64,000 bases of DNA from Streptomyces sp. NBC_00344. GTDB lineage: Bacteria; Actinomycetota; Actinomycetes; Streptomycetales; Streptomycetaceae. The translations under genes and the position numbers were made by a program. The notes beneath the pieces were generated by a model. The model made no database searches. It was not told the origin of the DNA and saw nothing but the letters and a program-made list of their open reading frames with translations. The stretch is taken from positions 2,376,501 through 2,440,500 of the forward strand of contig NZ_CP107996.1 in assembly GCF_036088315.1 (NCBI RefSeq), given 5' to 3'. Below, in pieces: positions 1 through 14,874 of this stretch (positions are counted from its first letter, which is position 1; every line of letters begins with the position of its first letter).

Positions 1-190
1 GGCCCAGCTCGGGCGCCTGCCGCATGTTCTTGACCGTCATTCGCGCCACGAGGGGCGGGACCTCGTGCACGGTCGCCAGGGGCTCGCCGGTGACGCCGCG
101 CAGGACGCGGGTGTCGCGGGAGGTGCGTTCCTCCCCGGCGCGGAGAGCGGGTACGGACACGGGTACGGGTACGGGTACGGGTAACAGCAC
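1..190 (-). CDS. N-terminus of a possible aldehyde dehydrogenase / LuxC-like acyl reductase (runs off left edge)
   Basis: Partial gene: 63 residues are visible, beginning at a GTG at 188-190 with an AGGAAG ribosome site about 10 nt upstream. The product starts MLLPVPVPVPVSVP (the PV run comes from a hexamer repeat) and continues through VTGEPLATVHEVPPL to the window edge. That stretch resembles the start of NAD(P)-dependent aldehyde dehydrogenases or LuxC-type acyl reductases, but the catalytic region is outside the window. It follows the cyclase-family gene in the same direction, about 100 bp away. If it is LuxC-like it would pair naturally with the LuxE-like enzyme at 2.5 kb, activating and then reducing a carboxylate to an aldehyde. 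The family assignment is weak. Confidence 0.4.
   Translation of the reverse strand, partial: MLLPVPVPVPVSVPALRAGEERTSRDTRVLRGVTGEPLATVHEVPPLVARMTVKNMRQAPELG
161..182. repeat. GGGTAC hexamer tandem repeat
   Basis: Three full copies and a partial copy of GGGTAC lie inside the first codons of the partial leftward gene. On that strand they encode the Pro-Val run. Such a run can change length by slippage in steps of two residues. Confidence 0.8.
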
Positions 191-292
191 GCCAGATCAA
201 CTTCCTGCGGTCCGGGCCGGTTCGGTGGTCCGCTCAGCCACACCGGCCCCGGACTGCGCCCGGAACCGGTGTGGGTCGCGGCTGCGGCAGGG

Positions 293-964
293 TCAGAATG
301 GCCAGCCGTCGAAGACCACGGCGCGGGCGGGCGCGGCCTCCACGTCGGCGACCTTGATGGGGAGCGCCATGAGCTGGACGACGGGGTTGGTGATGTGCCC
401 GAGGTTCTGGATGTTCTCCAGGATCGGGATGCCGGCGGAGAGCAGCCGGCGGTGCACCTGGCCGCTGCGGTCGTCCGGCCGCTCGGTGATGCAGTCCATC
501 CCGACGAGCGTGGTGCCGTTGTCGGCCATCCAGTCGGCCGCCGAGACGGTGAGGTACGGGGGCCTGTCCCAGTAGTCCTCGCGTCCGAGGTACCGGTCGG
601 GGTGGTCGGTCCGGATCAACAGCCGGTCCCCTTCCTGCCACACGTCGCGCACGGCCTTCTCCAGGTCCTCACCCGTCACCGGGTCGAGGTCGCGCTTGTG
701 GGAGAGGTCCGCGACGACAGCGCGGCCGACGAACGTGCTGAGCGGCACCTCGTCGATCTTCTCGCGGTCCTCGAAGAAGTGGTAGCCGGCCTCAACATGT
801 GTCCCGTTGTGGGGAAATATCTCCAGGTTGGAGAAGGTCCTGCCGGTCCCGGACGGATCGGAGGCCGGCGTCATGGCGCGCCGAATATGAAATTCCGGAT
901 ACCACGGGGCGTCGTAGGCGGGCATGCCCTCGGACCAGCCCTGACTAATGTCAATCAGCTTCAC
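293..964 (-). CDS. Cyclase / kynurenine formamidase-like metal-dependent hydrolase
   Basis: About 223 residues, matching the cyclase family (Pfam Cyclase; kynurenine formamidase, isatin hydrolase). The metal-binding region is visible as NGTHVEAGYHF, a variant of the usual HxGTHxDxPxH. I chose the GTG at 962-964 because GGAG lies 6 nt upstream and the protein then opens MKLIDISQGWSEGMP, as family members do; upstream ATG and GTG codons extend it by up to 22 residues without a better ribosome site. Known members hydrolyse amide or lactam bonds or dehydrate ring compounds using Mn or Zn. It is transcribed away from the DAHP synthase across an AT-rich gap and probably acts on a cluster intermediate. 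The substrate cannot be read from sequence. Confidence 0.75.
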   Translation of the reverse strand: MKLIDISQGWSEGMPAYDAPWYPEFHIRRAMTPASDPSGTGRTFSNLEIFPHNGTHVEAGYHFFEDREKIDEVPLSTFVGRAVVADLSHKRDLDPVTGEDLEKAVRDVWQEGDRLLIRTDHPDRYLGREDYWDRPPYLTVSAADWMADNGTTLVGMDCITERPDDRSGQVHRRLLSAGIPILENIQNLGHITNPVVQLMALPIKVADVEAAPARAVVFDGWPF

Positions 965-1441
965 GCTGCACTCCATCACCTGGACGGAAACAACCCCGCC
1001 AGGGCGGCGGGACCCGGGAGAAAGTAGCACGCCCCGGAGAGGAATCCACGAAAATAATTAACTAAAGATTCAACCAAATATGGAGTCTTTAATTCCAGGA
1101 AAGCACCGACCAAACAGGAAGTATTGCATTTAAGTAATCCCTGCTTTATTCTCACTTCCTTTACCGATCATTTACATGCAGCACACACTTACGCCCGGAT
1201 CATCCCCTTGCGTCGATCGGATTGTCTGGATTCAACCTCATCGCACCCTTGCTAGCGTTTACGCGCATCAATCACGTTTACGCACGTGAGGAGCGGAAGG
1301 GTCGTTTTGACTGTTTCGACCCGTTCGCCCCTCGCCGCATTCCTGCTTGCGGCCCGGCGAGAGGCTCGGCTACTGTCACCGTCGGCTCAAAAGTCGGCTC
1401 GAAAAGAGAAACGCACAGTAAGCCCATGGAAGGCCAATTCC
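965..1441. promoter_or_regulatory. AT-rich divergent promoter region of the cluster, with paired CGTTTACGC repeats
   Basis: This 477-bp gap separates the leftward cyclase gene from the rightward DAHP synthase. Positions 1050-1180 are strikingly AT-rich for this genome. CGTTTACGC occurs twice (1256-1264 and 1275-1283), 19 bp apart start to start, or about two helical turns on the same face. That spacing suits a dimeric regulator. About 160 bp separate the second repeat from the DAHP synthase start, so a long leader is likely. No gene is supported here. Confidence 0.5.
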
Positions 1442-2503
1442 GTGATCGTGATACTGGATTCGACCGCACCCCGAGAAATTGCCGGAATCGTCGCCGAGAC
1501 TCTTTCAAAAAGCGGAGTTGACACCACCTTAACAAAACTCGGGAATACAGCAGTGCTCGTTTCCGAGAGTTCCGGCACGCCGGAACTGGCCGCAATGCTG
1601 GAAAGCCTCCCGGCCGTCGCCCGCGTTCTGCGGGTGCCAGGACCGCAGCGGCTCACGAGCCGCGCCTTCCGCGAGGAGAACTCCCGCGTTCGTGTCGGCG
1701 AGAATGTCCAAGCAGTATTCGGCGGGGACGAGTTCGTCGTCATCGCCGGCCCCTGCGCGGTGGAGAGTGCCGAACAAATGACCGGGATCGTGAACCTGGT
1801 GCACGCCGGGGGCGCGATCATGCTGCGGGGCGGCGCCTTCAAGCCCCGCACCTCCCCGTACAGCTTCCAGGGGCTCGGACTCGCGGGGCTCACACTGCTC
1901 GCGGAACAGCGCCGGCGCACGGGGCTTCCCGTCGTCACCGAAGTCGTCACCCCCAAGGACGTCGAGTGCGTCGCCGAAGAGAGCGACATGCTCCAGATCG
2001 GCGCGCGCAACATGCAGAACTTCGAGTTGCTGCGCGAAGCAGGTGCGTCGGGCAAGCCCGTCCTTCTCAAACGAGGGATGTCCGCCACCATCGAGGAGTG
2101 GCTGCTGGCGGCCGAGTACCTCCTCCACATGGGCAACGACGACGTCGTCCTGTGTGAACGCGGCATTCGCAGCTATGACCGCAGCACCCGTTTCACGCTG
2201 GATCTCAGCGCGGTGGCCGAGGCCAAACGCCTCACCCATCTCCCGGTGATCGTCGACCCGAGTCACAGCACCGGAAAACCGCACCTGGTCGGCCCGATGT
2301 CGCTGGCCGCGGCCGCCGCCGGGGCCGACGGGCTCATCATCGATGTACACACCGACGCCGGTGCCGCGCTGTGCGACGGCGCCCAGGCTCTCGACGGCGC
2401 GCAGTTCGCCGCCCTCATGGACAAGCTGGGCCCCCTTCTGCAAGCCGTGGGCCGCAGGCTCGCACCGACCGTCCGCCCCGCCGGTTCCCTCGCCTCGGCC
2501 TGA
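1442..2503 (+). CDS. 3-deoxy-7-phosphoheptulonate (DAHP) synthase, type I-beta
   Basis: 353 residues. It condenses phosphoenolpyruvate with erythrose 4-phosphate, the first step of the shikimate pathway. A small N-terminal ferredoxin/ACT-like domain (about 1-75) precedes the barrel, which carries AGPCAVES, GGAFKPRTSPYSFQG, LLKRG and IVDPSHSTG. This is the architecture of the Thermotoga/Bacillus AroA type, whereas housekeeping Streptomyces DAHP synthase is usually the unrelated type II. The GTG start at 1442 has GGAAGG 8 nt upstream; longer reading to 1286 adds unconserved residues. Codon 30 is TTA (1529-1531), so translation probably needs the bldA tRNA. Codons near the 5' end are unusually AT-rich. 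As first gene of the rightward operon it would boost chorismate supply for the isochorismate synthase. Confidence 0.93.
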   Translation: MIVILDSTAPREIAGIVAETLSKSGVDTTLTKLGNTAVLVSESSGTPELAAMLESLPAVARVLRVPGPQRLTSRAFREENSRVRVGENVQAVFGGDEFVVIAGPCAVESAEQMTGIVNLVHAGGAIMLRGGAFKPRTSPYSFQGLGLAGLTLLAEQRRRTGLPVVTEVVTPKDVECVAEESDMLQIGARNMQNFELLREAGASGKPVLLKRGMSATIEEWLLAAEYLLHMGNDDVVLCERGIRSYDRSTRFTLDLSAVAEAKRLTHLPVIVDPSHSTGKPHLVGPMSLAAAAAGADGLIIDVHTDAGAALCDGAQALDGAQFAALMDKLGPLLQAVGRRLAPTVRPAGSLASA

Positions 2504-2523
2504 CCGCCCCCTGGAGACGCAGC

Positions 2524-3618
2524 ATGTCGCGCCACACCACTGACCCGTTCACCACGGACCTCGGGCCGGACGAGTTCGTGCCCGCAGCGATGCGGTGGCA
2601 CTTCTCCGCCGAAACCGGCTCTCCCTACTGGCTCAAGCGCGCCGCCGACCTCGGCTTCGACCCCCTGACGGACATCCGCACCTGGGAGGACCTCGACCTC
2701 TTCCCCGACGTCAGCGAGGAATGGCGCACCCTTGCGGTCGACGACCTCATACCGGCCGGAACCACCGCCGACCCCTGGGAGTTCCAGGTCTTCGACAGCG
2801 GCGGCACGACCGGCTCGCCCAAGCGCATCGTCGAGGCCCGCTCTCGGCGCAACGGCGTTCACTGGGTCAGCGAGGTCCTCGCCGCGCACGGAATACCCGG
2901 GCGCGGTGAGGGGCACTGGCTGCACATAGGACCCACCGGGCCCCACATCGTGGGCCGTTCGGTCGGCCTGCTCGCCCAGCTGCGCGCGACGTTCTGCCAC
3001 TACATCGACTTCGATCCCCGCTGGGTGAAGAGCTGCGTCAAACAGGGCAGGGGCGAAGAAGCCGGGCGCTACGTCAAGCACATCCTCGCGCAGGCCGGTG
3101 ACGTACTCGCCACGCAGCCCGTCTCCGTCCTCTTCGCCACCCCACCGGTGCTGGAGGCGCTCTGCGCCGACGACGCCCTCCTCGACCTCGTGCAGCGCAA
3201 GGTGCGGGGCATCGTCTGGGCGGGCACCAGTGTGAGCCCGGAGACACTGCGTGCCTTCGAGGAGGAGCTGTTCCCCAACGCCACCCTCGTCGGGCTGTAC
3301 GGCAACACCATGATGGGCATCGCCCCGCAGCGCCCCCGGGAGACGGACGACACGCACCCGTGCGTCTTCATCCCGTACCACCCGTACAGCAGGGTCAAGG
3401 TCGTCGAGCCCGAGCAGCCGACCCGCGAGGTGGCGCACGGCGAGCGCGGACAGGCGCGCATCAGCCTCCTCTCCCGGGACCTGCTGGTGCCCTGGACGCT
3501 GGAGCGGGACTCGCTCGTCCGCGTCGCGCCGACCACGCGCTACCCGCAGGACGGGCTCGCCGACATCCAGGTGCACTCGGGGGAGAGCGGCCAGTCCATC
3601 ATCGAGGGGGTGTACTAG
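2524..3618 (+). CDS. LuxE / phenylacetate-CoA ligase-like acyl-adenylating enzyme
   Basis: 364 residues, starting 20 nt after the DAHP synthase stop with GGAG before the ATG. The AMP-forming signature is visible as FDSGGTTGSPKRIVEA (about 96-111), followed by VWAGTSVSPETL and LVGLYGNTMMG. The length and the lack of a full C-terminal ligase domain fit the LuxE acyl-protein synthetase branch better than PaaK, which is about 430 residues. LuxE-type proteins activate a carboxylate as acyl-AMP and hold it as a thioester for a LuxC-type reductase. Here it may activate an aromatic acid from isochorismate, either for reduction to an aldehyde or for transfer. The carboxylate substrate is unknown. Confidence 0.75.
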   Translation: MSRHTTDPFTTDLGPDEFVPAAMRWHFSAETGSPYWLKRAADLGFDPLTDIRTWEDLDLFPDVSEEWRTLAVDDLIPAGTTADPWEFQVFDSGGTTGSPKRIVEARSRRNGVHWVSEVLAAHGIPGRGEGHWLHIGPTGPHIVGRSVGLLAQLRATFCHYIDFDPRWVKSCVKQGRGEEAGRYVKHILAQAGDVLATQPVSVLFATPPVLEALCADDALLDLVQRKVRGIVWAGTSVSPETLRAFEEELFPNATLVGLYGNTMMGIAPQRPRETDDTHPCVFIPYHPYSRVKVVEPEQPTREVAHGERGQARISLLSRDLLVPWTLERDSLVRVAPTTRYPQDGLADIQVHSGESGQSIIEGVY

Positions 3619-3620
3619 CG

Positions 3621-5087
3621 ATGACCGTGGACATCGCGCCGGCCCCCGGCGAGTTCACCCTCACCCCCGACGACCACACCGCGCTCGTGGACGCCTGCAA
3701 CGCGGGCGTCGAGCGGGCGCGCGCCACCGGTCGCCACGCCCTCGTCAGCTGGGCCCGTCCGTGCGCGCTCGCCGACCCCTACGCGACCTGGGCGGGAGCC
3801 CGGGCGCGCACGGGGCGCTCCCTGTACTGGCAGTCGGCGTGGGACGGCACGACCGTCCTCGCCTTCGGCAGCGCCCATGACCTGCGCGGCGCGGGGGCGG
3901 GCCGCCTCCCCGCGATCCGCTCCGCCTGGACGGAACTGGTGCGCGAGACGATCACCGCGGGCCGGGACGGGTCCGGGGCGGGGCCGCTCGCCGTCGGCGG
4001 CTTTGCCTTCGGCGGCAGTACACACCTCCCACCGGGTGTGTTACCCGAGGCCCTGCTGTGGGTGCCGCTGGTGCAACTGCGCTGCACGGTGCCGGACGAG
4101 GCGGGGGCGGTGTCCGGCACTCTCACGGCGGAACTGCGGCTCAACGCTCTCGTGGACGGGAGCGACGACCCCGAACTGCTCACCAAGGCACTGACACTGC
4201 GGGCCGAGCGGTGCATGGCCGCCCGGGACACGCGCGGGCCACACCCCGCCCCCCGTCCCCGCGCGAGCGTCGAGACACCCGCCGCCGGGGACTGGAAGGA
4301 CCTCGTGCGCCGCGCCACGGGCCGGATGCGGGCGGGCGATTTCGAGAAGGTGGTGCTCGCCCGGCGCCTGGACGTCACCGCCGACCGGGAGTTCGACGTC
4401 CCCGCAGCGGTCCGCCGGATGCGGGAGGCCTACGCAGGTACGACGGTCTTCGCCCTCGGCCACGGCGACACCACCTTTCTCGGCGCGACACCCGAGTACC
4501 TCGTCCGGGTCGAGGAGCGAGAGGTGCAGGCGCTCGGCCTCGCCGGCACCACCCCGCGCGGGGACACCCCCGCTGAGGACCGGGCGCTGGAGGCCGAGCT
4601 CTCCGGCAGCGCGAAGCTCCGGCACGAGCACGAGGTCGTGGTCCGGATGCTGAGCGAGGCACTCGCCGAGTCCTGCACCCAGGTCACAGCCGAGGCAGAG
4701 CCCCAGGTGCTCAAACTCGCCAACGTTCAGCACCTGTCGACGCCGGTACGGGGACGGCTGCCCGAGGGCTCTGCGGAGGGAGTCCTCGATCTCGCTGCCC
4801 GCCTCCACCCGACGCCTGCGCTCGGCGGTCACCCCCGCGCCGAGGCGCTGGAGTGGCTCGCCCGCAACGAGGGCTTCGACCGCGGCTGGTACGCGGGCGG
4901 CATCGGCTGGACCGACGGAGAAGGGAACGGGCAGTTCGCCGTGGCGATACGCTCCGCGCTCGTGCGGGGCGACTCGGCCTCGCTGTACGCCGGTTGCGGC
5001 CTCGTGGCGGATTCCGATCCCGAGGTCGAGTACGCCGAGACCTGCGCCAAGCTCCGCCCCATGCGCGCCGCCCTCGGACTCGACTGA
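3621..5087 (+). CDS. Isochorismate synthase (MenF/EntC/DhbC type)
   Basis: 488 residues, starting two bases after the preceding stop, so translation is probably coupled. It belongs to the chorismate-utilising enzymes. C-terminal motifs include FEKVVLARRLDV, FLGATPEYLV, KLRHEHEVV, HLSTPVRG and LHPTPALGGHPR. The HPTPALGG form is typical of isochorismate synthases rather than anthranilate or aminodeoxychorismate synthases. It would hydroxylate chorismate at C2 with water to give isochorismate. Codon 141 is TTA (4041-4043), a second bldA-dependent codon in precursor supply. No isochorismatase, pyruvate lyase or MenD accompanies it, so the fate of isochorismate is open. A strong hairpin follows the stop. 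Confidence 0.92.
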   Translation: MTVDIAPAPGEFTLTPDDHTALVDACNAGVERARATGRHALVSWARPCALADPYATWAGARARTGRSLYWQSAWDGTTVLAFGSAHDLRGAGAGRLPAIRSAWTELVRETITAGRDGSGAGPLAVGGFAFGGSTHLPPGVLPEALLWVPLVQLRCTVPDEAGAVSGTLTAELRLNALVDGSDDPELLTKALTLRAERCMAARDTRGPHPAPRPRASVETPAAGDWKDLVRRATGRMRAGDFEKVVLARRLDVTADREFDVPAAVRRMREAYAGTTVFALGHGDTTFLGATPEYLVRVEEREVQALGLAGTTPRGDTPAEDRALEAELSGSAKLRHEHEVVVRMLSEALAESCTQVTAEAEPQVLKLANVQHLSTPVRGRLPEGSAEGVLDLAARLHPTPALGGHPRAEALEWLARNEGFDRGWYAGGIGWTDGEGNGQFAVAIRSALVRGDSASLYAGCGLVADSDPEVEYAETCAKLRPMRAALGLD

Positions 5088-5093
5088 GGGCCG

Positions 5094-5132
5094 GGCCCCG
5101 GCGCCGCCCTCGCGCGGGACGGCGCCGGGGCC
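5094..5132. terminator. GC-rich hairpin after the isochorismate synthase gene
   Basis: Perfect 12-bp inverted repeat (5094-5105 with 5121-5132) and a 15-nt loop, just after the stop codon. There is no U tract; a pyrimidine run follows (5135-5173). It may terminate or attenuate the first three genes, splitting the rightward operon in two. Confidence 0.65.
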
Positions 5133-5196
5133 TGTTCCCCCCCTCCCCCTCCCCCTCCCCCCTTTCCCTCCCCATCGGCCACGGAGAACTGGCACC

Positions 5197-6396
5197 TTGA
5201 CTCTGGAGAACATCGTCGTCGTCGGCGGCGGACTTGCCGGCTCGCACGTCGCCGGGGCGCTTCGCGCCCGCGGCTACCGGAGCGCGCTCACCCTCGTCGG
5301 CGCGGAGCCCCACCCGCCGTACGACCGCCCGCCGCTCACCAAGTCGGTGCTGGCCGGCGAGGAGGAGGACACTTCCTTCCCCACCGACTGGGAGGGCTTG
5401 GGCCTCGGCCTGCGCCTCGGCGAACGTGCCGAGGCCCTCGACCTGCACGACCGCCTGCCGGGCGGCGTTCTGAAGACGACGGCGGGCGCACTCGCCTTCG
5501 ACGGGCTCGTTCTCGCGACCGGCGCGGAGCCCGTCCGGCTGCCCGGCGAGGGAAGGCAGTACGTGGTCCGCACCGTGGATGACGTGCGCGCGCTGCGCCC
5601 GCTGCTGCGGACGGGCACGCACCTCGCACTCGTCGGCGCCGGGTGGATCGGCGCCGAGGTCGCCACGATCGCGGCCACGAAGGGGTGCCAGGTCACGGTC
5701 CTGGAGGCCGGCCGGGCTCCGCTCGCCGCCGCGGTCGGCGACCGGATCGGCGCGTTGACGGCCCCCTGGTACGCGGCGGCCGGGGTCACCCTGCGCTGCG
5801 GAACCTCCGTCACCTCGGTGGACCCCGGCGGACTGCGCCTGACGGACGGGCAGTTCCTCGCGGCGGACGTCGTGGTGGTGGGCGTCGGCGCCCGCCCCGC
5901 CGTCGGCTGGCTCAGGGACTCCGGCCTGGAAATCGCGCGCGGCGTGGTCGTCGACGAGTCCCTGCGGACCACGAGGCCCGAGGTGGTGGCGCTCGGCGAC
6001 TGCGCCGCCTGGTGGTCACGGCGGTACGGGCGGCACATGGTGGTCGAGCACTGGGACACCGCGCTGAAGGCGAGCGAACCGGCCGCCGCCGCGTTGCTGG
6101 GTGAGGACGTGTGCCATGACCCCGTTCCGTACTTCTGGTCGGAGCAGTTCGGCCGGACGGTGCAGTACGCGGGCGACCACCAGGGCACCGACCAGGTGGT
6201 GATGCGGGGCTCACCGGAGGACCCGCAGTGGGCCGTCCTGTGGCTGGCGGACGAACGCCTCCGCGCGGTCCTCACCGTGGACCGCCCCCGCGACCTGGTA
6301 CAGGCACGCCGCGCCCTCATCAACGGTTGCGTGGTCGACCTCCCGGCCGCCACCGATCCCGGCACCCCGCTGCGCGACGCCCTGCACGCGGCCTGA
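5197..6396 (+). CDS. FAD/NAD(P)-dependent ferredoxin-reductase-like oxidoreductase
   Basis: 399 residues with a TTG start at 5197 and GGAG 10 nt upstream. An N-terminal FAD-binding fold (VVVGGGLAGSHVAGALR), a second dinucleotide site (LVGAGWIGAEVATIA, about 148-162), GDCAAWW near the third FAD contact, and a C-terminal reductase domain place it with BphA4/putidaredoxin-reductase proteins. These usually pass electrons from NAD(P)H through a ferredoxin to a Rieske oxygenase or P450. Neither partner is visible within the cluster, so it may use a distant ferredoxin, have a partner left of the window, or act directly on a cluster intermediate. It lies after the internal hairpin and 26 nt before the aminotransferase. 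Confidence 0.85.
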   Translation: MTLENIVVVGGGLAGSHVAGALRARGYRSALTLVGAEPHPPYDRPPLTKSVLAGEEEDTSFPTDWEGLGLGLRLGERAEALDLHDRLPGGVLKTTAGALAFDGLVLATGAEPVRLPGEGRQYVVRTVDDVRALRPLLRTGTHLALVGAGWIGAEVATIAATKGCQVTVLEAGRAPLAAAVGDRIGALTAPWYAAAGVTLRCGTSVTSVDPGGLRLTDGQFLAADVVVVGVGARPAVGWLRDSGLEIARGVVVDESLRTTRPEVVALGDCAAWWSRRYGRHMVVEHWDTALKASEPAAAALLGEDVCHDPVPYFWSEQFGRTVQYAGDHQGTDQVVMRGSPEDPQWAVLWLADERLRAVLTVDRPRDLVQARRALINGCVVDLPAATDPGTPLRDALHAA

Positions 6397-6421
6397 ACAA
6401 CGCGGAGAGGACAACCCTTTC

Positions 6422-7501
6422 ATGACCACAACGGAAGATCTGCCACGGTTCCGCGCGGCACTGAGTCAACTCGTGAGCTACCGGCCCGAGAAGCCGGCGC
6501 TCTCGCCCGAGGGCCGTTCCTACGCCCTTGCCGCCAACGAGACGCCATTCGGCCCGCTGCCGAAGGTGGCACGGGCGATCGAGCAGCAGATCGAGAGCAT
6601 CAACCGCTACCCCGACAACGGCGGCCAGGCCCTCACCGCGGAGCTGGCGCAGCGGTTCGGGCTCGAACCGGAGGGCATCGCACTCGGCTGCGGTTCGGTC
6701 GGCGTCGCCCAGCAGCTGATCACCTCCGTCGCCGAACCGGGCGATGAAGTCCTCTACGCCTGGCCCTCGTTCGAGGCGTACCCGATCCTCACCCGGCTCG
6801 CCGGGGCGACCCCCGTCGAGGTGCCACTGCGCGAGGGCGTCCACGATCTCGCAGCGATGGCGGAGCACATCACCGACCGCACCCGGCTGGTCTTCGTCTG
6901 CAACCCGAACAACCCGACCGGCACGGCCGTCGGCCGCGCGGAGCTCGAGAAGTTCCTGGGACGCGTGCCCGCCGGCTGCCTCGTCGTCCTGGACGAGGCC
7001 TACCACGAGTACGTGCGCGCCGCGGATGTGCCCAACGGGCTCTCCCTCCTCACCGGCCGCCCCCACCTGGTCGTCCTGCGCACCTTCTCGAAGGCTTACG
7101 GACTCGCCGGGCTGCGCATCGGCTACGCGGCCGGCCACCCCGAGGTGATCGGCACCCTGCGCAAGGCCTACCTGCCGTACAGCGCGGGCAGTGTGGCCCA
7201 GGCGGCGGCGATCGCGGCGCTGCGCTCGGGGGACGAGGTGGCGAGGAGGACGGACGTCGTCACGGCGGAACGCGCGCGCGTCGCCGCCGCGCTCGAAGCG
7301 CGGGGATGGCGTCTGCCCAGGAGCGAGGCCAATTTCCTCTGGCTGCCGCTCGGCGGGCGCGCCACCGCCTTCGGCGCGCACTGCGCGAGCGCGGGTGTCT
7401 GCGTACGGGCCGTGGCGGGCACCGGTGTCCGCGTCACCCTGGGCCTGCCCGCCGACAACGACGCCTTCCTGGCGGCGGCCACCACCTTCCCGCCCGCCTG
7501 A
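6422..7501 (+). CDS. HisC-like PLP-dependent class I/II aminotransferase
   Basis: 359 residues, close to the usual HisC length. The PLP lysine is K224 in RTFSKAYGLAGLRIGYAAG, with NPNNPTG and LDEAYHEY upstream as in fold-type I enzymes. HisC relatives also transaminate aromatic 2-oxo acids. Inside an isochorismate cluster, and away from any his genes, amination of an arylpyruvate-like or ring-oxo intermediate is more likely than histidine synthesis. GGAGAGG lies upstream of the ATG. Substrate assignment is inference. Confidence 0.85.
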   Translation: MTTTEDLPRFRAALSQLVSYRPEKPALSPEGRSYALAANETPFGPLPKVARAIEQQIESINRYPDNGGQALTAELAQRFGLEPEGIALGCGSVGVAQQLITSVAEPGDEVLYAWPSFEAYPILTRLAGATPVEVPLREGVHDLAAMAEHITDRTRLVFVCNPNNPTGTAVGRAELEKFLGRVPAGCLVVLDEAYHEYVRAADVPNGLSLLTGRPHLVVLRTFSKAYGLAGLRIGYAAGHPEVIGTLRKAYLPYSAGSVAQAAAIAALRSGDEVARRTDVVTAERARVAAALEARGWRLPRSEANFLWLPLGGRATAFGAHCASAGVCVRAVAGTGVRVTLGLPADNDAFLAAATTFPPA

Positions 7502-7548
7502 CCCCGCACCTGCCAGGAGCCGGCCCCCGGCTCGACATTGGGAGACGC

Positions 7549-8826
7549 ATGTCCTTTCTCCGCCCCAGGTTCCCGGGCGAACGCGCCCTGGTCTCCGGAA
7601 TCGCCGTGGACGCGGTCGGCTCCGGGATGTACGTTCCCTTCAGCCTGGTGTTCTTCCGTCATGTCACAGGCCTGCCACTACCGCTGATCGGGCTGGTGCT
7701 CACCGTCACCGGGCTCGTCGGCATCGCCGCCGTCCCCGTGGTGGGCATCGCCGTGGACCGCTTCGGCGCCCGCACGATGCAGATCTCTCTGTACGTCGTG
7801 CGGGGGCTGAGCTTCGCGTGTTTCCCGCTCGCCCACGCGCTGCCGGTCTTCGCCGTCGTCGCACTGCTCACCTCGGTGGGGACACGCGCCTTCCGCCCCG
7901 CCCAGGACGCGCGGATCGCCGAACTCGCCGATGGCACCGCCCGGGACCACCTGCAGGCTCTCAGCCGCAGTCTGAGCAACGCCGGTCTCGGCGCAGGCAC
8001 CCTGATCGCCTCGGTCGTCATCGCCACCGCGGGCGATTTCGGCTACACGATCACGGCGTGGCTCAACGGGGCGAGCTTCATCGCCGCGGGCTTCCTCGCC
8101 TCGCGCACCCCGGCCGCCCCGCCCCGCTCCCCGGTGATCCCGCGCGCACCCGGCGGTGGCTACCGCGTCGTCGCCAGGGACCGGCCCTTCCTCGGCCTCG
8201 TGTGCGCCAACCTTCTCGTCGCCCTCGGCTTCTCGGCGCTCACCTCGCTCCTCCCGCTGTACGCGACGGGCTCGCTGGACCTGCCCGAAGGTCTCGTCGG
8301 CAGCGCCTTCCTCCTCAACACCGTGCTGTGCGCGACCCTCGGCGTTCCTGTCGCCGCCCTCGCCCGGCGCTGCTTCGCCACCCGCCCCCGGGCCGCCGCC
8401 GCCGGCGCCGCGCTCTTCTCCCTCTCCTTCCTCGCCCAGGCGGCGCTCGGCACCGTCCGGCCGCACGGCGTACCGCTCCTGCTCGCCGGCCTGCTTGGCG
8501 CGGTCCTCGTCATGACGGTGGGCGAGATGGTGTACAGCCCCTCCTCCGGAGCGCTGTCGCAGTTCGCCGCGCCCCAGCGGCTGCGCGGCCGCTACCTCGC
8601 CACCTACCAGTTGTCCTGGTCACTGGCGTACGCCCTGGGCCCGACGGTGTTCACCTCGCTGCTCACCGTCGACGGCCGCCTGCCGTGGCTGCTCGTGGCG
8701 GTCACGGCGGCGCTCGGGTCGCTCCTGCTGACGCGTGTCGAACGGCACCTTCCGGCCGAGGCCGTCGCCTTCGTCCCCGCGCCCGCGCCCGCGCCCGGGA
8801 GTGCGGCCACGACCGTCGCCAAGTGA
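7549..8826 (+). CDS. MFS exporter (cluster)
   Basis: 425 residues with about 12 hydrophobic segments and the MFS arrangement of two six-helix halves. The conserved loop after helix 2 is visible as GIAVDRFGAR. The ATG is preceded by GGAG in the 47-bp gap after the aminotransferase gene. The tail is Pro-Ala rich. Its place in the middle of the biosynthetic operon suggests export of the product or self-protection. A second, distinct MFS gene ends the cluster at 12.6 kb. Confidence 0.85.
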   Translation: MSFLRPRFPGERALVSGIAVDAVGSGMYVPFSLVFFRHVTGLPLPLIGLVLTVTGLVGIAAVPVVGIAVDRFGARTMQISLYVVRGLSFACFPLAHALPVFAVVALLTSVGTRAFRPAQDARIAELADGTARDHLQALSRSLSNAGLGAGTLIASVVIATAGDFGYTITAWLNGASFIAAGFLASRTPAAPPRSPVIPRAPGGGYRVVARDRPFLGLVCANLLVALGFSALTSLLPLYATGSLDLPEGLVGSAFLLNTVLCATLGVPVAALARRCFATRPRAAAAGAALFSLSFLAQAALGTVRPHGVPLLLAGLLGAVLVMTVGEMVYSPSSGALSQFAAPQRLRGRYLATYQLSWSLAYALGPTVFTSLLTVDGRLPWLLVAVTAALGSLLLTRVERHLPAEAVAFVPAPAPAPGSAATTVAK

Positions 8827-8902
8827 TGCCGCGCCTCGTACCCCACACAGAGTCATGGCGGCGGGCGCGCCCGCCCACCGCACCACGATCAGGAGACAAG
8901 AC

Positions 8903-10276
8903 ATGGACCGCATCACCTTGACCGAGGAGTATCTGACGGAGCTGGAGGCCGCGGGGCTGTCGAGTGAGGAGCTGCTGGGCGGCCTGCCGCAGAACAAGAT
9001 CCTCAACAGCGACAAGCCGAACGGCATGGGCAAGTGGCTCGCGCGCCCGGTCTTCCTCGGTGGCGAGGAACTTGCCCGGCTCGCCGCCGATCTCGACAAC
9101 CTCCTCACGGCGCTGGACAGCCTGCCCGAGAAGCTCTTCGGCGGGGACTTCGCCGCCTTCGCGCGCGCGGTCGGGCTGACCGAGCCGCAGGTCGACGCGG
9201 TCCTGCAGAACCGGGGAGAGCGGATGACCCGGCAGAGCCGGGCCGACCTGGTCTGCGAAGGAGCCGGCTTCAAGCTCCTCGAACTCAACATCGGCAGCGC
9301 GATAGGCGGTGTCGACAACGTCGACGTCTGCCGCGAACTCCTGGAGGTCCCCGTCCTCGCCCGCTTCGCCGAGCGCCACGGGCTGACCTTCGTCGACTCG
9401 CTCCGCGAGCAGGTCCACAACATCCTCACCGAGAGCGGCTTCTCGGCGGAGGACCACCCTGTCGTCGCGCTCACCGAATGGCCTTCGGCCTTCTCCGACG
9501 AGCTGCCGTACATGACGCAGCTGTGCGAGCGCTGGGGCGACCTGGGCCTTGACGCCACCCCTTGTCATCTCGGTCAACTCGAGGTGCGTGAGGGGCGCGT
9601 GTGGCTCGCGGACAGGCCGGTCGACATCATCGTGCGCACCTTCCTCATCCGTGACGTCGTGAGCCCGGACGCCCCCCGGCTGACCGCCCCCGTCTTCGAC
9701 GCCGCGCGCCGGGGCGAAGTAAAGATCTTCACACCGCTCGACACCTCCGCCTACGCGAGCAAGGCGGCCCTCGCGCTGCTCTCGGAGGAGGGCAACCGGC
9801 ACCTGTTCCCGGACGAGGTCCTCGCGAGCCTCGACCGCATCCTGCCGTGGACGCGGCGGGCGCGCCGCGGGGAGGTGACGCTGGAGGACGGCGAACGGGT
9901 CGACCTCGTCGAGTACGCCCTGTCTCACGCCGAGGAGCTGGTGCTCAAGCCCACGTCGCTCTCCGGCGGGAAGGGCGTCGTGCTCGGCTGGGCCGACGGC
10001 CTCACCCCTGAGGCATGGCGGGCACACGTCCTCGCCGCGCTCGACAGCCCGCACGTTCTGCAACGGCGGGTGCGGCCCGCCCAGGAGACCGTCCCCGTCC
10101 CGGGCGGCGGGGTGGACCGGTTCCGTCCCGTGTGGGGGATCATCACGGGTGTCAACGGTTTCATCGGCGGCAGTGTGCGAGCCATCCCCTCCGCCGCCGG
10201 CGATGTCGTGGTGAACGTCGCCAACGGCGCCCACGTCGGTGCCCTGCTGCACGAGGCGGCGGCTCCCTCCAGCTGA
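8903..10276 (+). CDS. ATP-grasp-like carboxylate-amine ligase (putative)
   Basis: 457 residues, ATG with AGGAGAC upstream. The central part carries LLELNIGSAIGGVDNVDV, and the C-terminal part LVLKPTSLSGGKGVVLGW, which looks like the nucleotide-binding lysine and glycine-rich loop of the ATP-grasp fold. The order of these elements suggests a circularly permuted ATP-grasp or glutathionylspermidine-synthase-like fold. Such enzymes form amide or peptide bonds through acyl phosphates. In a cluster without an NRPS it is the best candidate for joining the aminated intermediate to an amino acid or amine. Fold assignment is moderate; the partners are unknown. Confidence 0.6.
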   Translation: MDRITLTEEYLTELEAAGLSSEELLGGLPQNKILNSDKPNGMGKWLARPVFLGGEELARLAADLDNLLTALDSLPEKLFGGDFAAFARAVGLTEPQVDAVLQNRGERMTRQSRADLVCEGAGFKLLELNIGSAIGGVDNVDVCRELLEVPVLARFAERHGLTFVDSLREQVHNILTESGFSAEDHPVVALTEWPSAFSDELPYMTQLCERWGDLGLDATPCHLGQLEVREGRVWLADRPVDIIVRTFLIRDVVSPDAPRLTAPVFDAARRGEVKIFTPLDTSAYASKAALALLSEEGNRHLFPDEVLASLDRILPWTRRARRGEVTLEDGERVDLVEYALSHAEELVLKPTSLSGGKGVVLGWADGLTPEAWRAHVLAALDSPHVLQRRVRPAQETVPVPGGGVDRFRPVWGIITGVNGFIGGSVRAIPSAAGDVVVNVANGAHVGALLHEAAAPSS

Positions 10277-10349
10277 GCCCGCCGCCCGGCCGGCCTCACC
10301 ACCCCTCGTACCGAGGCGCTTCCGGCGCCGTCCCAAGGAGACCACTGTC

Positions 10350-11402
10350 ATGAGAGCCGCTGTATTCCACGGCAGGCGCGACGTACGGGTCCAGGAGTGG
10401 CCCGACCCCCCGGCCCCCGGGCCCGGGGAGATCCAGCTCGCCGTGGTACGCGCGGGCATCTGCGGTACGGACGTCGAGGAGTTCGCCTCCGGACCGCACC
10501 TCATCCCGTTCGCCGGGCCGCACTTCGCGAGCGGTCACCAGGGCCCGCTGGTCATCGGCCACGAGATGGTCGGCGAGGTCATCGCGACCGGCCCCGGTGT
10601 CGACGCCTTCACACCGGGCGACCTGGTCGTCCCGGGCTCCGGGGTCTCGTGCGGGAACTGCCGCTGGTGTGCTCGGGGGCGGACAAACGTCTGCGCGCGG
10701 TACTACACGCTCGGGCTGCATGTGGACGGCGGTCTCGCCGAGCGGGTCAACGTCCCGGCCGGCATCAGCCGTTCTGCGGGCGGGCTCACCCCTGACGTCG
10801 CCATCATGGCGCAGCCGCTCGCCGTGGCGCTGCGGGCGGTACGCGGTATCGCTCCCGAACCGGACAGGACCGTCGTGGTGATCGGCCTGGGCGGCATCGG
10901 GTCGCTCGCGGTCGCCGCCTGCGCGGCCCGGGGAGTGGAGACGATCGGTGTCGACGTCTCGGCCGCCCGGCTGGAGACGGGGCGCCGCGCCGGCGCGGGG
11001 CTGCTGATCGACGCCTCGCGCGAGGACGCCGCCACCGCGATCCGGGCGGCAACGGCCGGTCACGGCGCGGACGTGGTGATCGAGGCCTCGGGGGTGACCG
11101 CCGGACTTGCGACCGCGATGAACTCGGTCTGCCGGGGCGGGCACGTCCGCCTGGTCGGCCTCCACCGCGACCCCTCGCCACTCGACCTGACCCGGCTGGT
11201 CCTGGAGGAGATCACGCTCGACACCTCGAAGGTCCACGTCTGCGACCGGGACCTCCCCGAGGCCCTGGCCCTGCTCACCGCGCACCCGGAGATCGCCACG
11301 ACGGCGCTCGACGAGGTCATCACCCTGGACAGGCTCGTCCCGGACGGCCTCGAACGCGTCGAGCGGGGGGACGCCACCGGCAAGATCGTCGTACGCCCCT
11401 AG
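10350..11402 (+). CDS. Zinc-dependent medium-chain alcohol dehydrogenase
   Basis: 350 residues with AAGGAG before the ATG. Catalytic zinc ligands are visible at C38 (GICGTD) and H71-E72 (IGHEMVGEV). The structural zinc cysteines are in SCGNCRWCARGRTNVC (about 102-117), and the NAD(P) Rossmann motif is VVIGLGGIGSLA. It resembles the threonine dehydrogenase/butanediol dehydrogenase branch. It could oxidise a ring hydroxyl or reduce an aldehyde made by the LuxE/LuxC-like pair. It is the last gene of the rightward run and ends at a strong terminator. Confidence 0.87.
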   Translation: MRAAVFHGRRDVRVQEWPDPPAPGPGEIQLAVVRAGICGTDVEEFASGPHLIPFAGPHFASGHQGPLVIGHEMVGEVIATGPGVDAFTPGDLVVPGSGVSCGNCRWCARGRTNVCARYYTLGLHVDGGLAERVNVPAGISRSAGGLTPDVAIMAQPLAVALRAVRGIAPEPDRTVVVIGLGGIGSLAVAACAARGVETIGVDVSAARLETGRRAGAGLLIDASREDAATAIRAATAGHGADVVIEASGVTAGLATAMNSVCRGGHVRLVGLHRDPSPLDLTRLVLEEITLDTSKVHVCDRDLPEALALLTAHPEIATTALDEVITLDRLVPDGLERVERGDATGKIVVRP

Positions 11403-11411
11403 CCGGGAACA

Positions 11412-11455
11412 GCGGTACGGGGCAGGGACGCACACGGTGCCCTGCCCCGTACCGC
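11412..11455. terminator. Terminator between the cluster operon and its convergent regulator
   Basis: Perfect 16-bp inverted repeat (11412-11427 with 11440-11455) and a 12-nt loop. It lies 10 bp past the dehydrogenase stop and faces the 3' end of the leftward regulator, so it can serve both strands. Confidence 0.8.
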
Positions 11456-11517
11456 TTGCCGCGCAAGGCGGTGCCGGGCCACGCGCGCGGCCCGGGGCCC
11501 CACCGCGTGCCCGCCGC

Positions 11518-12495
11518 TCAGCCCGGCCGGGTTCCGAGCAGTTCGTCGGCGACCGACGTGCGCGCGTACAGCACGGAGCGGCCGGCGCGGTGCGCGCTGA
11601 CGAGTCCGGCGTCGCGCATCGCGGTGAGGAACTGGGAGACCCCTGCCGGCGAGATGCCGGTGCGCCGGGCCAGTTCGGTGGTCGAGGCGGGCGCTTGGAG
11701 CTCGGTGAGCAGCAGGGTGCGCGAGCGGCCGAGCACGGCGGAGACCGCCTCGGACCGGGAAGGAGCGGGCCGCTCCCACAGGACGCCCACGCCGCGCGAA
11801 GGATAGGCCAGTTGCAGCGGCTCCGGATCCCGTACCACCGTCAGCACGCCCGGCCCGGCGAAGACCGAGGGGATGAGAAGGAGCCCCGCCCCCTTCGTCG
11901 CGCGGTGGAGCGTCTCCGGCCGGCGGACGAGCCGCAGCGTGTTGTCGTCCCAGCTCACCTTGGCGTGCAGCCCGTTGAAGAGGGCACCCGCGCCGTACTC
12001 GGCGACCTGGCGCGCGCGGTGGAAGATGTCGGCGTCGAGGACGGTGCGCATCCGCTGCCAGTACGGCGCGAGCGCGATCTCCCAGTACCTCTCGATCTCC
12101 GCCGTGAGTTCGACCAGTTGGCCCCCCGGGTCGGCGTGCAGAGACCGTATACGCGATGCGGGCCTGCCCAGGTGCCGCCCCAGGTGGTCCAGGTCCCGGC
12201 GCACCTCGGCGGCCGCCGAGCCCCGCACCGCGTCCAGCTCCTCGCGCAGCGAGGGGGCGTGGCCGGCCGGGACGGGGTTGAGGAAGTCCGCGAGGTAGCC
12301 GCTCGGCGGGATGAGCGCGGCAAGCCAGCCACGATCCAGTTCGGCCGCCGCGAGGCGGGGGCGCACCTGCTCGACCCACGGGAGATGAACGGCGGCCGGG
12401 CGGGCGGAGCGCAGCAGCCGATAGCTCGTCACGACCTCCCACATGGGCGAGATCGAGAACCGCATGCGCGCCAGGTCGCTCGCCGAGAACTCCAT
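11518..12495 (-). CDS. DUF5937/ArsR-type winged-helix regulator
   Basis: 325 residues. The N-terminal DUF5937-like domain opens LARMRFSISPMWEV, and the C-terminal 70 residues form an ArsR-type helix-turn-helix (TELARRTGISPAGVSQFLTAMRDAGLV). I prefer the ATG at 12493-12495, which gives MEFSASDLARMRF as in relatives; an ATG at 12520-12522 adds nine residues and would leave the message nearly leaderless. It is divergent from an MFS exporter with an inverted repeat in the short gap. That suggests it represses the exporter and itself, perhaps released by the cluster product. Confidence 0.8.
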   Translation of the reverse strand: MEFSASDLARMRFSISPMWEVVTSYRLLRSARPAAVHLPWVEQVRPRLAAAELDRGWLAALIPPSGYLADFLNPVPAGHAPSLREELDAVRGSAAAEVRRDLDHLGRHLGRPASRIRSLHADPGGQLVELTAEIERYWEIALAPYWQRMRTVLDADIFHRARQVAEYGAGALFNGLHAKVSWDDNTLRLVRRPETLHRATKGAGLLLIPSVFAGPGVLTVVRDPEPLQLAYPSRGVGVLWERPAPSRSEAVSAVLGRSRTLLLTELQAPASTTELARRTGISPAGVSQFLTAMRDAGLVSAHRAGRSVLYARTSVADELLGTRPG

Positions 12496-12520
12496 TTCCG
12501 CCAGGGCGAATCCCCCCACC

Positions 12521-12538
12521 ATTCAGTCATCGCTGAAT
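12521..12538. promoter_or_regulatory. Inverted repeat ATTCAG-N6-CTGAAT, likely operator
   Basis: A perfect 6-bp dyad with a 6-bp spacer in the 81-bp gap between the ArsR-type regulator and the divergent MFS gene. Size and position suit an operator that controls both genes. Confidence 0.6.
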
Positions 12539-12576
12539 CATTTGCCGGGCCCCCGAGAGCCGCACATCATGCGGAC

Positions 12577-13803
12577 ATGTTCTCTTCGTACAAGGGCCTG
12601 CCACGCACCGCCTGGGTCATCTTCAGCGGGACGATCGTGAACCGCCTGGGCTTCATGGTAGTGCCCTTTTTGGTCTACTACCTAGGGTCACGAGGCGTCA
12701 GCACATCTCAAGTCACCTATGTGCTCGGCTGTTTGGGAATCGGTACACTCGTGGGCCCGCTGCTCAGCGGACTGCTCGCGGACCACTGGGGCCGTCGCTC
12801 GACCATGGTCACCGGGCTGGTGGGCACGGCCGTCTCGCACGGTCTGCTCTTCGCGGCGCCCAACCTGGTGACGCTCGCGCTCGCGGCCGCCGTCCTCAGC
12901 GTCTGCGGCACCATGGTCAGCCCCTCCGCCAACGCGCTCCTCGCCGAGTCCGTCGGCGCGGAACGCCGTCGCAACGCCTTCTCGCTCGTCTACTGGGCGG
13001 TCAACATCGGCAGCGCCGGGGCCGGCATCCTCGGCGGCTTCCTCGCCGCGCACGGCTACTGGCTGCTCTTCGTGATCGACGGAAGCAGCTCCCTCGCCTT
13101 CGCCCTCATCGCCGCGCGCCTGCTCCCCGCCGGCAAGCGATCCGCGCCCCCCGCGACAGGCCAGGGCGGCGGCTACGGAGTGGTCCTGCGCGACCCGCTG
13201 ATGCGCGCGCTGCTCCCCCTCTTCGGCATCACCCTCGCCATCTACTCCCTGACCGAGGCGGGCCTGCCGCTCGCGATCCGCGACGATGGCCTCTCGCCCA
13301 AGGTCCTCGGTCTGATGGCCACGCTCAATGCGGTCCTGGTCGTCATCCTTCAGCCCATCGCCACCACGGTCCTCGCCAAGGTCCGGCCGCTCGTCGTCTA
13401 CGTCTTCGCGGCCGGACTCATCGCACTCGGCGTCGCGCTCACCGGCCTCGCCGACGACGTGTGGACCTACGGCGCCACCGTCGCGGTGTGGTCGCTCGGC
13501 GAGGCGGCCATCGGCGGCATCCACTCGGCGACGATCCAGAGCATCGCGCCCGAACACGCCCGAGGCCGCTACCAGGGTGCCTTCCAGTGGCTGTGGGGCT
13601 CATCGCGCTTCGTCGCCCTGACCGTGGGGACCGCCGTCTACGCCCACGCGGGAGCCGCCGTCCTGTGGGGGTTCTGCGCGGTGGCCGGTCTCGTCGCCCC
13701 GCTGGGGGTTCTCGCGCTGGGCCCGGCCATCGAGCGGCGTGCGGCCGAGGCGGAGAAGAAGGAGGAGGAGCCGGAGGAGGAGGCCGTGCTGTCGGCCGAG
13801 TAG
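12577..13803 (+). CDS. MFS exporter divergent from the ArsR-type regulator
   Basis: 408 residues, starting MFSSYKGLPRTAWVIF, with about 12 transmembrane segments. The loop-2 motif is visible as GLLADHWGRRSTM. The tail is very acidic (EEEPEEEAVLSAE). It has its own regulator and operator, so it probably provides inducible export or self-resistance, unlike the MFS gene inside the operon. It is the last gene of the recognisable cluster; the vapBC and repeat region follows. Confidence 0.85.
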   Translation: MFSSYKGLPRTAWVIFSGTIVNRLGFMVVPFLVYYLGSRGVSTSQVTYVLGCLGIGTLVGPLLSGLLADHWGRRSTMVTGLVGTAVSHGLLFAAPNLVTLALAAAVLSVCGTMVSPSANALLAESVGAERRRNAFSLVYWAVNIGSAGAGILGGFLAAHGYWLLFVIDGSSSLAFALIAARLLPAGKRSAPPATGQGGGYGVVLRDPLMRALLPLFGITLAIYSLTEAGLPLAIRDDGLSPKVLGLMATLNAVLVVILQPIATTVLAKVRPLVVYVFAAGLIALGVALTGLADDVWTYGATVAVWSLGEAAIGGIHSATIQSIAPEHARGRYQGAFQWLWGSSRFVALTVGTAVYAHAGAAVLWGFCAVAGLVAPLGVLALGPAIERRAAEAEKKEEEPEEEAVLSAE

Positions 13804-14174
13804 GTACGCGCACCACCCCATCCCGGCGCCGCCCGTACCGCCACCCCTGGCTCACCGGCTCATCGCGCCGCTCGGCACCGAGGCCGGGTCGCACCAGCGC
13901 AAGGACGGCAGACTGACCGCCGGGCAGCGCGATCCACGGGGAACCCAGCCGCTCCCCCGCCGCGCCGGACTCATTCGGCGGGCTGCTAAATCCGCGCGGA
14001 CCGCAAAGGCCACCCAACCCGCTCCGGCGCAGGTCGGACGGTCGTTCGCCGGACGTATCGGACGTTGAAGCGGAACTCCACCACAACCCGTCCGACCTGC
14101 GGAAAGCCAACGATGCACAGGCTCGACCCACAGCCATCGAAGCACTCGCCGGCACGGCGTGCGGCGGTCCCAGC
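13804..14174. other. Gene-poor 371-bp junction with repeat copy and dyad
   Basis: I see no convincing gene. The stretch holds the left copy of the 23-bp ychF-end repeat (14062-14084). A 10-bp inverted repeat (GGTCGGACGG at 14032-14041, CCGTCCGACC at 14088-14097) encloses that copy. Frames here look like degraded sequence rather than a known protein. Confidence 0.5.
14062..14084. repeat. Left copy of 23-bp ychF-3'-end direct repeat (possible att site)
   Basis: Identical over 23 bp to 15102-15124, which is part of the ychF coding end (residues VVEFRFN). Read on the minus strand, this copy also encodes VVEFRFNV but continues without a stop. Similarity ends abruptly on both sides. A dyad surrounds it, as in recombinase core sites. 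It is likely an attachment-site duplication left by an integrated element. Confidence 0.65.
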
Positions 14175-14591: not shown

Positions 14592-14839
14592 GCCGCCGAG
14601 GCCCCGCCATCGCGCTTCAGCGAGCCGTCCGGATTCCGCGGCCCCGTCTGCGAGCGGATCTCCGCGAACGCGTCATCAAACTCACCATCGTCAATGGCAT
14701 CGAACAGCTCCCGGCGCAGCCGCAGCCTCACCCCCTCCTCCATGGCCGCCCGCACTGCGGCGGCCTTCGTCTTCGCCCCGTACACCCGCATCGCCTGCTC
14801 GACGATCTCCTCGTCCAGATCGATCACAGTCCTGGCCAT
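14588..14839 (-). CDS. vapB: VapB-type antitoxin
   Basis: 83 residues. The N-terminal ribbon-helix-helix-like part (MARTVIDLDEEIVEQAMRVY) and AAVRAAMEEGV are typical of VapB. The C-terminal half, rich in Asp/Glu, would wrap VapC. GGAGGG lies 8 nt before the ATG. A palindromic operator candidate lies just upstream, fitting autorepression by the VapBC complex. Confidence 0.87.
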   Translation of the reverse strand: MARTVIDLDEEIVEQAMRVYGAKTKAAAVRAAMEEGVRLRLRRELFDAIDDGEFDDAFAEIRSQTGPRNPDGSLKRDGGASAA

Positions 14840-14874
14840 CAGTTAGTCCCTCCGGAGCCCGACATCCCAACGAC

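Follow-up and report, generated by a model that had tools for sequence, protein, structure and literature searches.

Here, we describe a 15-gene cluster of Streptomyces sp. NBC_00344 in which a Zn-dependent alcohol dehydrogenase gene (ZnADH) occupies a role that, in sister clusters, appears to belong to a gene of the DUF362 family. The conserved block extends from about -4912 to 13803 in the coordinates of the window, the 64,000-nucleotide stretch that was analysed (G000:C1:2376501-2440500 of the 7.06 Mb genome), and the left edge of the window cuts through it. In our estimate there is an even chance that the cluster is a route from isochorismate to a small peptide with a modified tyrosine, working without a nonribosomal peptide synthetase (NRPS). 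A more specific reading is put forward as tentative: that NRPS-free actinomycete clusters oxidise isoprephenate by a dedicated dehydrogenase; that in the ancestral type, which carries a heme-dependent aromatic oxygenase (HDAO), this enzyme was a nickel-pincer DUF362 protein, the first case of such a cofactor in a specialised-metabolite cluster; that the ZnADH of the window displaced it; and that the products are 3-formyl-5-hydroxytyrosine peptides.

In the pathway proposed here, a dedicated 3-deoxy-D-arabino-heptulosonate 7-phosphate synthase (DAHPS) would feed the shikimate pathway and an isochorismate synthase (ICS) would supply isochorismate, which would become isoprephenate either spontaneously or with the aid of a cyclase-family protein. 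The ZnADH would oxidise the ring carbinol of isoprephenate, aromatising it to 3-carboxy-4-hydroxyphenylpyruvate, and transamination by a HisC-type enzyme would give 3-carboxytyrosine. An EhpF-type enzyme and an aldehyde dehydrogenase (ALDH) would then turn the ring carboxylate into an aldehyde, yielding 3-formyltyrosine, a salicylaldehyde. The SfmD-like HDAO, with a FAD ferredoxin/NAD reductase (FdR) as its possible electron source, would hydroxylate the free ortho position, ATP-grasp ligases would assemble a di- to tetrapeptide, and major facilitator superfamily (MFS) pumps would export it. What the analysis shows directly is which genes are present, the families they belong to, their conservation, the predicted fold of the heme enzyme and the separate occurrence of ZnADH and DUF362; the substrates, the order of the steps and the product are what we infer.

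ZnADH and DUF362 genes do not occur together

We followed the two genes through 18 loci of this kind. An intact DUF362 gene stands between the cyclase and ALDH genes in six of them (L014, L017, L018, L019, L023, L062), ZnADH is in the cluster in nine (the window, L011/L045, L016, L020, L021, L022, L060, L029, L065), and no locus has both. Neither gene is found intact in L012, L013 and L015; the latter two carry a GlcD-like FAD oxidase gene, which L018 has in addition to DUF362. A search of whole genomes gave a similar picture: a ZnADH orthologue (at least 69% identity) was absent from all five DUF362 genomes tested and present in six of seven others. In the genomes of L012 and L013 this orthologue lies away from the cluster, and the 19 kb around it hold none of the cluster genes.

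Moreover, fragments of DUF362 remain in the slot in four loci (L012:8125-8550, L016:8144-8590, L022:8419-8577, L060:13072-13524; tblastn E 1e-37 to 1.6e-4). Weak matches in L013 and L015 (E 0.002) were left out of this count, as were possible last DUF362 codons before ALDH in L020 and perhaps the window, which overlap the ribosome-binding region of ALDH. The mutual exclusion and the fragments together point to a displacement at one hydride-transfer step, where a nickel-cofactor enzyme would have been replaced by a zinc one. Three unrelated carbinol-acting enzymes, ZnADH, DUF362 and the FAD oxidase, thus appear to fill a single step, for which isoprephenate oxidation is the natural candidate.

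DUF362 is a predicted nickel-pincer enzyme

Genes for LarE, LarB and LarC, which serve the nickel-pincer cofactor, follow ICS in all six DUF362 loci and in none of the ten others with that DNA visible (L015 and L021, where it is not visible, stand outside the count). In L014 the three exceed the curated cut-offs. The Fisher values from the locus counts (0.009 and 1.2e-4) assume independence among loci that are in fact related, and they serve as indications only. DUF362 and the LarA domain belong to one Pfam clan, CL0471 (PMC11770544), and nine places in Actinomycetota genomes are matched by both models, some of them weakly (E up to 6e-4). Comparison of the DUF362 and LarA profiles by hhalign gave a probability of 93.3% and an E value of 2.7e-7, with 11 control profiles at 6.8% or below; a comparison built on a small number of sequences had given a weak result (E 0.042, probability 1.3%).

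Residues H147 and K157 of DUF362, present in 11/11 sequences, fall opposite a His and a Lys in LarA proteins from Actinomycetota. In LarA, His174 is catalytic and Lys184 holds the cofactor (PMC11770544). By motif and spacing, that His and that Lys of the aligned Actinomycetota proteins correspond to these two residues, of which H147 and K157 would be the equivalents. Among the PDB sequences, the DUF362 alignment brought up no relative (best E 1.1), and the structure model of DUF362 was poor (predicted local distance difference test score, pLDDT, 51.8). Judged by the company of the LarE, LarB and LarC genes and by its LarA homology, DUF362 is a predicted nickel-pincer enzyme. LarA itself works by accepting a hydride from its hydroxy-acid substrate (PMC12611868, PMC11770544).

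Isochorismate supply and the fate of isoprephenate

The best relatives of the ICS protein are isochorismate synthases (DhbC 1e-47 and EntC 3e-43 versus 1.5e-22 for MbtI). It scores 299 bits on TIGR00543 (cut-off 225), and its Lys243 aligns with Lys147 of EntC, a position which we take to be that of the general-base lysine. A salicylate synthase of the MbtI/Irp9 kind was rejected (TIGR03494, 120 bits, cut-off 325). Pfam did not reveal a glutaminase domain in this chorismate-binding protein, and no PhzD-, PhzF- or PhzG-type gene and no PhzE-type synthase is found among the cluster proteins. On gene content, the salicylate synthase, phenazine, siderophore-NRPS and menaquinone readings were all rejected.

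Isochorismate is reported to give isoprephenate without an enzyme (PMC6153503). For plants it has been proposed that isoprephenate either loses water to give 3-carboxyphenylpyruvate or undergoes oxidation to 3-carboxy-4-hydroxyphenylpyruvate, and that transamination follows (PMC11416591). We prefer the oxidative branch because the dehydrogenase, the aminotransferase and the SfmD-related hydroxylase fit it. Loss of water, spontaneous or by the cyclase, would instead lead through 3-carboxyphenylpyruvate to 3-carboxy- or 3-formylphenylalanine, leaving the ZnADH to act on an aldehyde or alcohol and the heme enzyme on another amino acid such as tyrosine. This branch agrees with the thermal breakdown of isochorismate, which yields 3-carboxyphenylpyruvate (PMC11416591), and with the L012 locus, which is without an intact dehydrogenase of the ZnADH, DUF362 or FAD-oxidase kind. 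However, one of these three is found in 17 of the 18 loci, and the heme enzyme is closest to SfmD, which acts on a phenolic 3-substituted tyrosine; we therefore regard the dehydratase branch as unlikely.

The cyclase-family protein, encoded by a conserved core gene, is a candidate for the isochorismate/isoprephenate step. Its metal motif, HNGTHVE, has Glu where kynurenine formamidase has Asp (HxGTHxD), as do all 13 of the sequences listed, and assignment as kynurenine formamidase was rejected (TIGR03035, 92 bits against a cut-off of 223). PF04199 proteins are hydrolases, and a Zn dehydrogenase could take the part of EntA. It is conceivable, then, that the cyclase cleaves the enolpyruvyl ether in the manner of an isochorismatase, that the ZnADH converts the diol into 2,3-dihydroxybenzoate, that EhpF and ALDH make an aromatic aldehyde, and that HisC works on a different building block. 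About 9 kb to the left there is in fact a gene of the isochorismatase family (PF00857). Thus the statement of the earlier note on this DNA that isochorismatase is absent holds for the conserved block and not for the wider surroundings. Yet this gene has no match in the sister stretches at E 1e-8 (each stretch at most about 21 kb), its sole matches, weak ones, being in the Pantoea and Burkholderia phenazine loci. The cyclase falls short of the arylformamidase cut-off and carries Glu for Asp, and an SfmD-like hydroxylase suits tyrosine and not benzoate, which makes the benzoate route distinctly improbable.

A predicted aryl-carboxylate reductase

The EhpF-type protein (364 amino acids) matches EhpF in the PDB over residues 16-364, effectively its whole length, and is 33% identical to the Pantoea EhpF. 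The ALDH is 30% identical over 438 amino acids (E 1.5e-60) to the ALDH encoded beside EhpF in the Pantoea phenazine locus L031; its homology to EhpG is judged by this Pantoea protein. Together, the two should form a predicted aryl-carboxylate reductase. A truncated adenylating enzyme likewise works with an ALDH in EhpF/EhpG (D-alanylgriseoluteic acid) and GriC/GriD (grixazone), whereas the present cluster is without phenazine genes and its predicted substrate is an amino-acid-type acid. The earlier note had seen here a LuxE-like activator and a possible LuxC-like start. An adenylating carboxylate activator is indeed predicted and the second gene is a real one, an ALDH, but they are of the EhpF and EhpG/GriD types and not of the luciferase type.

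The heme oxygenase and its reductases

HDAO belongs to the heme-dependent aromatic oxygenase superfamily, its predicted fold being that of SfmD, TyrH and IDO, and its nearest relative is SfmD. Residues H182 and H311 are invariant in 20/20 sequences and align with TyrH and SfmD; presumably they are the distal and proximal heme histidines. SfmD hydroxylates 3-methyltyrosine, and both TyrH and SfmD use H2O2 when oxidised and O2 plus a reductant when reduced (PMC11791213). The latter chemistry suits the reductases encoded near HDAO: FdR, a siderophore-interacting protein (SIP) reductase or a flavin reductase. Since a relative of SfmD would be expected to act on a 3-substituted tyrosine, the carboxy-/formyl-tyrosine branch is favoured over carboxyphenylalanine.

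SIP reductase genes are found in L013, L015, L017 and L020, and they raise the question of a metal chelator, a catechol amino-acid peptide or imine made by a siderophore-like system. SfmD-type hydroxylation of 3-carboxytyrosine would moreover yield a ring resembling 2,3-dihydroxybenzoate. However, the 15 genes of the window's cluster include no SIP match and no uptake gene, and SIP may be a mere flavin reductase for the heme enzyme, in keeping with the Nonomuraea loci, where the gene after HDAO encodes a flavin reductase. We consider the chelator a slim prospect.

Ligases and precedents for the product

ATPgrasp2, the second of two ATP-grasp ligases to the left of the window, matches the L-amino acid ligase 30vh over its full length (E 2e-69, residues 4-405), scores 223 bits against DdaF (cut-off 840) and shows a weak BacD match. 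In bacilysin and dapdiamide biosynthesis an unusual amino acid is joined by an ATP-grasp L-amino-acid ligase. The cluster shares this type of ligase with those NRPS-free pathways and differs from them in its predicted precursor, isochorismate and not prephenate or diaminopropionate, and in its additional carboxylate reductase and heme oxygenase.

The protein that the earlier note called an ATP-grasp-like ligase (8903-10276) has no Pfam match at 0.001. At a looser limit it matches CP_ATPgrasp_1 (E 0.0045) and CP_ATPgrasp_2 (E 0.0076), both matches being under the Pfam cut-offs. For a few of its relatives the databases give the name 'circularly permuted ATP-grasp' or 'glutathionylspermidine synthase', and its profile (12 sequences) found no match in the PDB up to E 1.

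Expression in E. coli of an ATP-grasp cluster from Pseudoalteromonas tunicata D2 is reported to have yielded 3-formyl-L-tyrosine together with the dipeptide 3-formyl-Tyr-Thr (PMC3151524), and FtyB is listed as an L-amino-acid ligase (PMC6920838). The likeness of this fty cluster lies in its ATP-grasp enzyme and 3-formyltyrosine, the comparison being by reported enzyme type and products; the present cluster also encodes an SfmD-like heme oxygenase, and its ATP-grasp genes number three. Since the building block is not without precedent, the claim of a new pathway must be tempered. What remains of that claim is the predicted hydroxylation of the building block, the additional ligases and a dehydrogenase that appears interchangeable, no description of which was found in searches of the open-licence literature; the same holds for 3-formyl-5-hydroxytyrosine peptides.

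The cluster is conserved in several actinomycete genera

The HDAO alignment was searched against one genome per species (84,980 species), which gave 18 HDAO loci. Thirteen of these (L011-L023) fall within this cluster kind, although the short contig of L021 begins only with HDAO. The other 12 (L011-L020, L022, L023) can be viewed on both flanks of HDAO. Here the genes for the cyclase, EhpF and ATPgrasp2 are always present (12/12), those for DAHPS and ICS in 11/12 each, with both misses at a locus or contig edge, and ALDH in 11/12, the twelfth being found in L085. The arrangement is more than chance, for the block is met again in Streptomyces, Kitasatospora, Nonomuraea and Actinoplanes. Outside this kind, HDAO in L024-L026 (Nonomuraea) has large NRPS-like genes for neighbours, together with a flavin reductase, and tblastn found no core genes in L024-L028 except for one partial ALDH match (29%) in L024. 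The Nonomuraea homologues are 51-54% identical (L024:10001-11763, L025:6594-8385, L026:6286-8066) and also have a LuxR-type regulator nearby, in an unrelated context.

HDAO is rare: six of 100 relatives searched have a match, the window's genome included, and none of the remaining five exceeds 39% identity. With EhpF as query and a limit of E <= 1e-110, matches came from 12 genomes among 392 of Streptomyces, again counting the window's own. In seven match regions examined, the core was present in 4/4 at 68% identity or more and in 0/3 at 50-52%. Three of those four (G225, G335, G206) are new and G218 resembles L013; of the other five matches, three resemble L011, L016 and L022, one (G249) sits at the edge of a contig and one is the window itself. 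A second cluster type (L029:6362-19766, on a plasmid of Streptomyces NBC_00998, and L065:10218-19750 with L066:872-3569) has the core and ZnADH without HDAO. In place of HDAO it carries genes for a short-chain dehydrogenase/reductase (SDR), a carbamoyltransferase, an ATP-grasp ligase and an amino-acid permease, which suggests carbamoyloxymethyl-tyrosine as its product.

In L016, L021, L022 and L060, the proteins FdR, HisC, MFS1 and ZnADH are 84-94% identical to those of window positions 5197-11402, while the cyclase, EhpF, ICS, ALDH, HDAO and ATPgrasp2 are 57-81% identical and DAHPS, where seen, 72-86%. We read this contrast as pointing to module exchange between clusters. The different histories might also mean that two clusters have merged, an isochorismate/aldehyde cluster and an independent FdR-HisC-MFS1-ZnADH unit that makes something else, and it fits this idea that L012 is without the FdR-HisC-MFS1-ZnADH block. 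However, ZnADH accompanies the core in the HDAO-free clusters without FdR, HisC and MFS1 (L029, L065), and loci that are less closely related also combine FdR and HisC with the core; a merger is, in our view, the least probable of the explanations weighed here.

Evidence that speaks against the proposed pathway

Several observations weigh against isoprephenate oxidation by exchangeable enzymes and against parts of the pathway around it. The L012 locus of S. fildesensis has the core and HDAO without ZnADH, HisC and FdR, its 69% identical ZnADH lying elsewhere in the genome, and lone relatives of this sort in L043 and L044 hint that the family of ZnADH may serve other functions. The known LarA enzymes are racemases and epimerases, redox-neutral in net terms (PMC11770544, PMC12611868), and therefore DUF362 need not carry out the same net oxidation as ZnADH. 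Pfam searches of the cluster proteins (NCBIfam for MFS2) found no AroQ/PchB isochorismate mutase and no prephenate-dehydrogenase-like gene, and two pathway steps therefore rest on unassigned proteins. The EhpF and ALDH genes are in divergent operons and not adjacent, unlike the characterised pairs, and the assignment of the circularly permuted ATP-grasp protein is weak. The thioether heme-link motif of SfmD is HxxxC. HDAO has no Cys at the aligned position, where Thr or Ala stands in 20/20 sequences, so that it falls outside the thioether subtype; in this it differs from SfmD, and the lack of an NRPS in the cluster is a further difference from the SfmD/TyrH systems.

Gene content and surroundings

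The features are collected in Table 1. All gene classes listed in the earlier note are present from the window's edge to 13803 and form a coherent arrangement. To the left, the cluster continues with four minus-strand genes (ALDH, HDAO and two ATP-grasp ligases), and it is these that stand nearest, not an NRPS or polyketide synthase (PKS) assembly line. Simple gene calling found no gene of more than 811 amino acids in about 38.5 kb left of the window, hence no modular NRPS or PKS there. The maps come from a simple gene caller based on GC frame, which performs poorly at lower GC and was for this reason backed by tblastn in L024-L028; left-flank coordinates are L004 positions minus 19500. Database names of relatives of the key proteins are mostly 'hypothetical', 'AMP-binding' or 'phenazine biosynthesis'. 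The earlier proposal of an aromatic amino acid from isochorismate, activation or reduction of a carboxylate and ligation without NRPS or PKS would seem largely right, with the reductase pair recast as EhpF/EhpG- or GriC/GriD-type and the pathway refined and extended.

Table 1. Cluster genes, a left-flank gene and the LarE/LarB/LarC genes of sister loci (window coordinates unless a locus is named)
Feature	Position	Strand	Remarks
ATP-grasp L-amino-acid ligase 2 (ATPgrasp2), left cluster end	-4912..-3656	-	L-amino-acid-ligase C-terminal domain match; 30vh
ATP-grasp ligase 1	-3659..-2469	-	L-amino-acid-ligase C-terminal domain match
SfmD-like heme oxygenase (HDAO)	-2376..-1270	-	no usable Pfam match
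ALDH, EhpG/GriD-type acyl reductase partner	~-1177..160	-	PF00171; only the N-terminal part (1..160) within the window
Cyclase-family protein, metal hydrolase fold	293..961	-	PF04199
Dedicated DAHP synthase (start approximate)	1430..2503	+	family match
EhpF-type adenylate-forming enzyme, AMP-binding	2524..3618	+	3hgu/3l2k E 7e-55
Isochorismate synthase (ICS)	3621..5087	+	TIGR00543; DhbC/EntC relatives
FAD ferredoxin/NAD reductase (FdR), HcaD-like	5197..6396	+	family match
HisC-type aminotransferase, PRK03321 subfamily, predicted aromatic transaminase	6422..7501	+	477 bits, cut-off 374
MFS exporter 1 (MFS1)	7549..8826	+	family match
Circularly permuted ATP-grasp-like ligase	8903..10276	+	weak match, under family cut-offs
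Zn-dependent alcohol dehydrogenase (ZnADH), predicted isoprephenate dehydrogenase	10350..11402	+	DUF362 in its stead in sister clusters
ArsR-type helix-turn-helix/DUF5937 regulator	11518..12522	-	family match
MFS exporter 2 (MFS2), right cluster end (start approximate)	12616..13803	+	family match
Isochorismatase-family hydrolase	-9184..-8633 (L004:10316-10867)		PF00857; beside MFS and MarR genes, outside the conserved block
LarE/LarB/LarC genes	L014:5764-8717; L017:2-2738; L019:1736-4516; L023:1-2592
LarE/LarB/LarC genes, continued	L062:18411-19901 with L063:279-1466; L084:6155-8986

An M24 (methionine-aminopeptidase-type) gene at -5776..-5009 (L004:13724-14491) adjoins the left end of the cluster. 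Its product was considered as a self-resistance target and rejected, since none of the other loci examined matched it at E 1e-8; we treat it as a neighbour. A PIN/VapB toxin-antitoxin pair (14175-14839) lies just to the right, and an Rfam scan of window positions 1-20000 gave no match.

Significance of the cluster

If the proposed pathway is true, actinomycetes would possess a recurrent type of cluster that diverts isochorismate into aldehyde-bearing tyrosines, warheads that can react with lysines to give imines. The pathway would also supply an isoprephenate dehydrogenase for a reaction which the plant work proposes, no enzyme being named in the part of that account consulted (PMC11416591), and would give a testable role to a DUF362 protein, a member of the family that serves as outgroup in work on LarA (PMC11770544).

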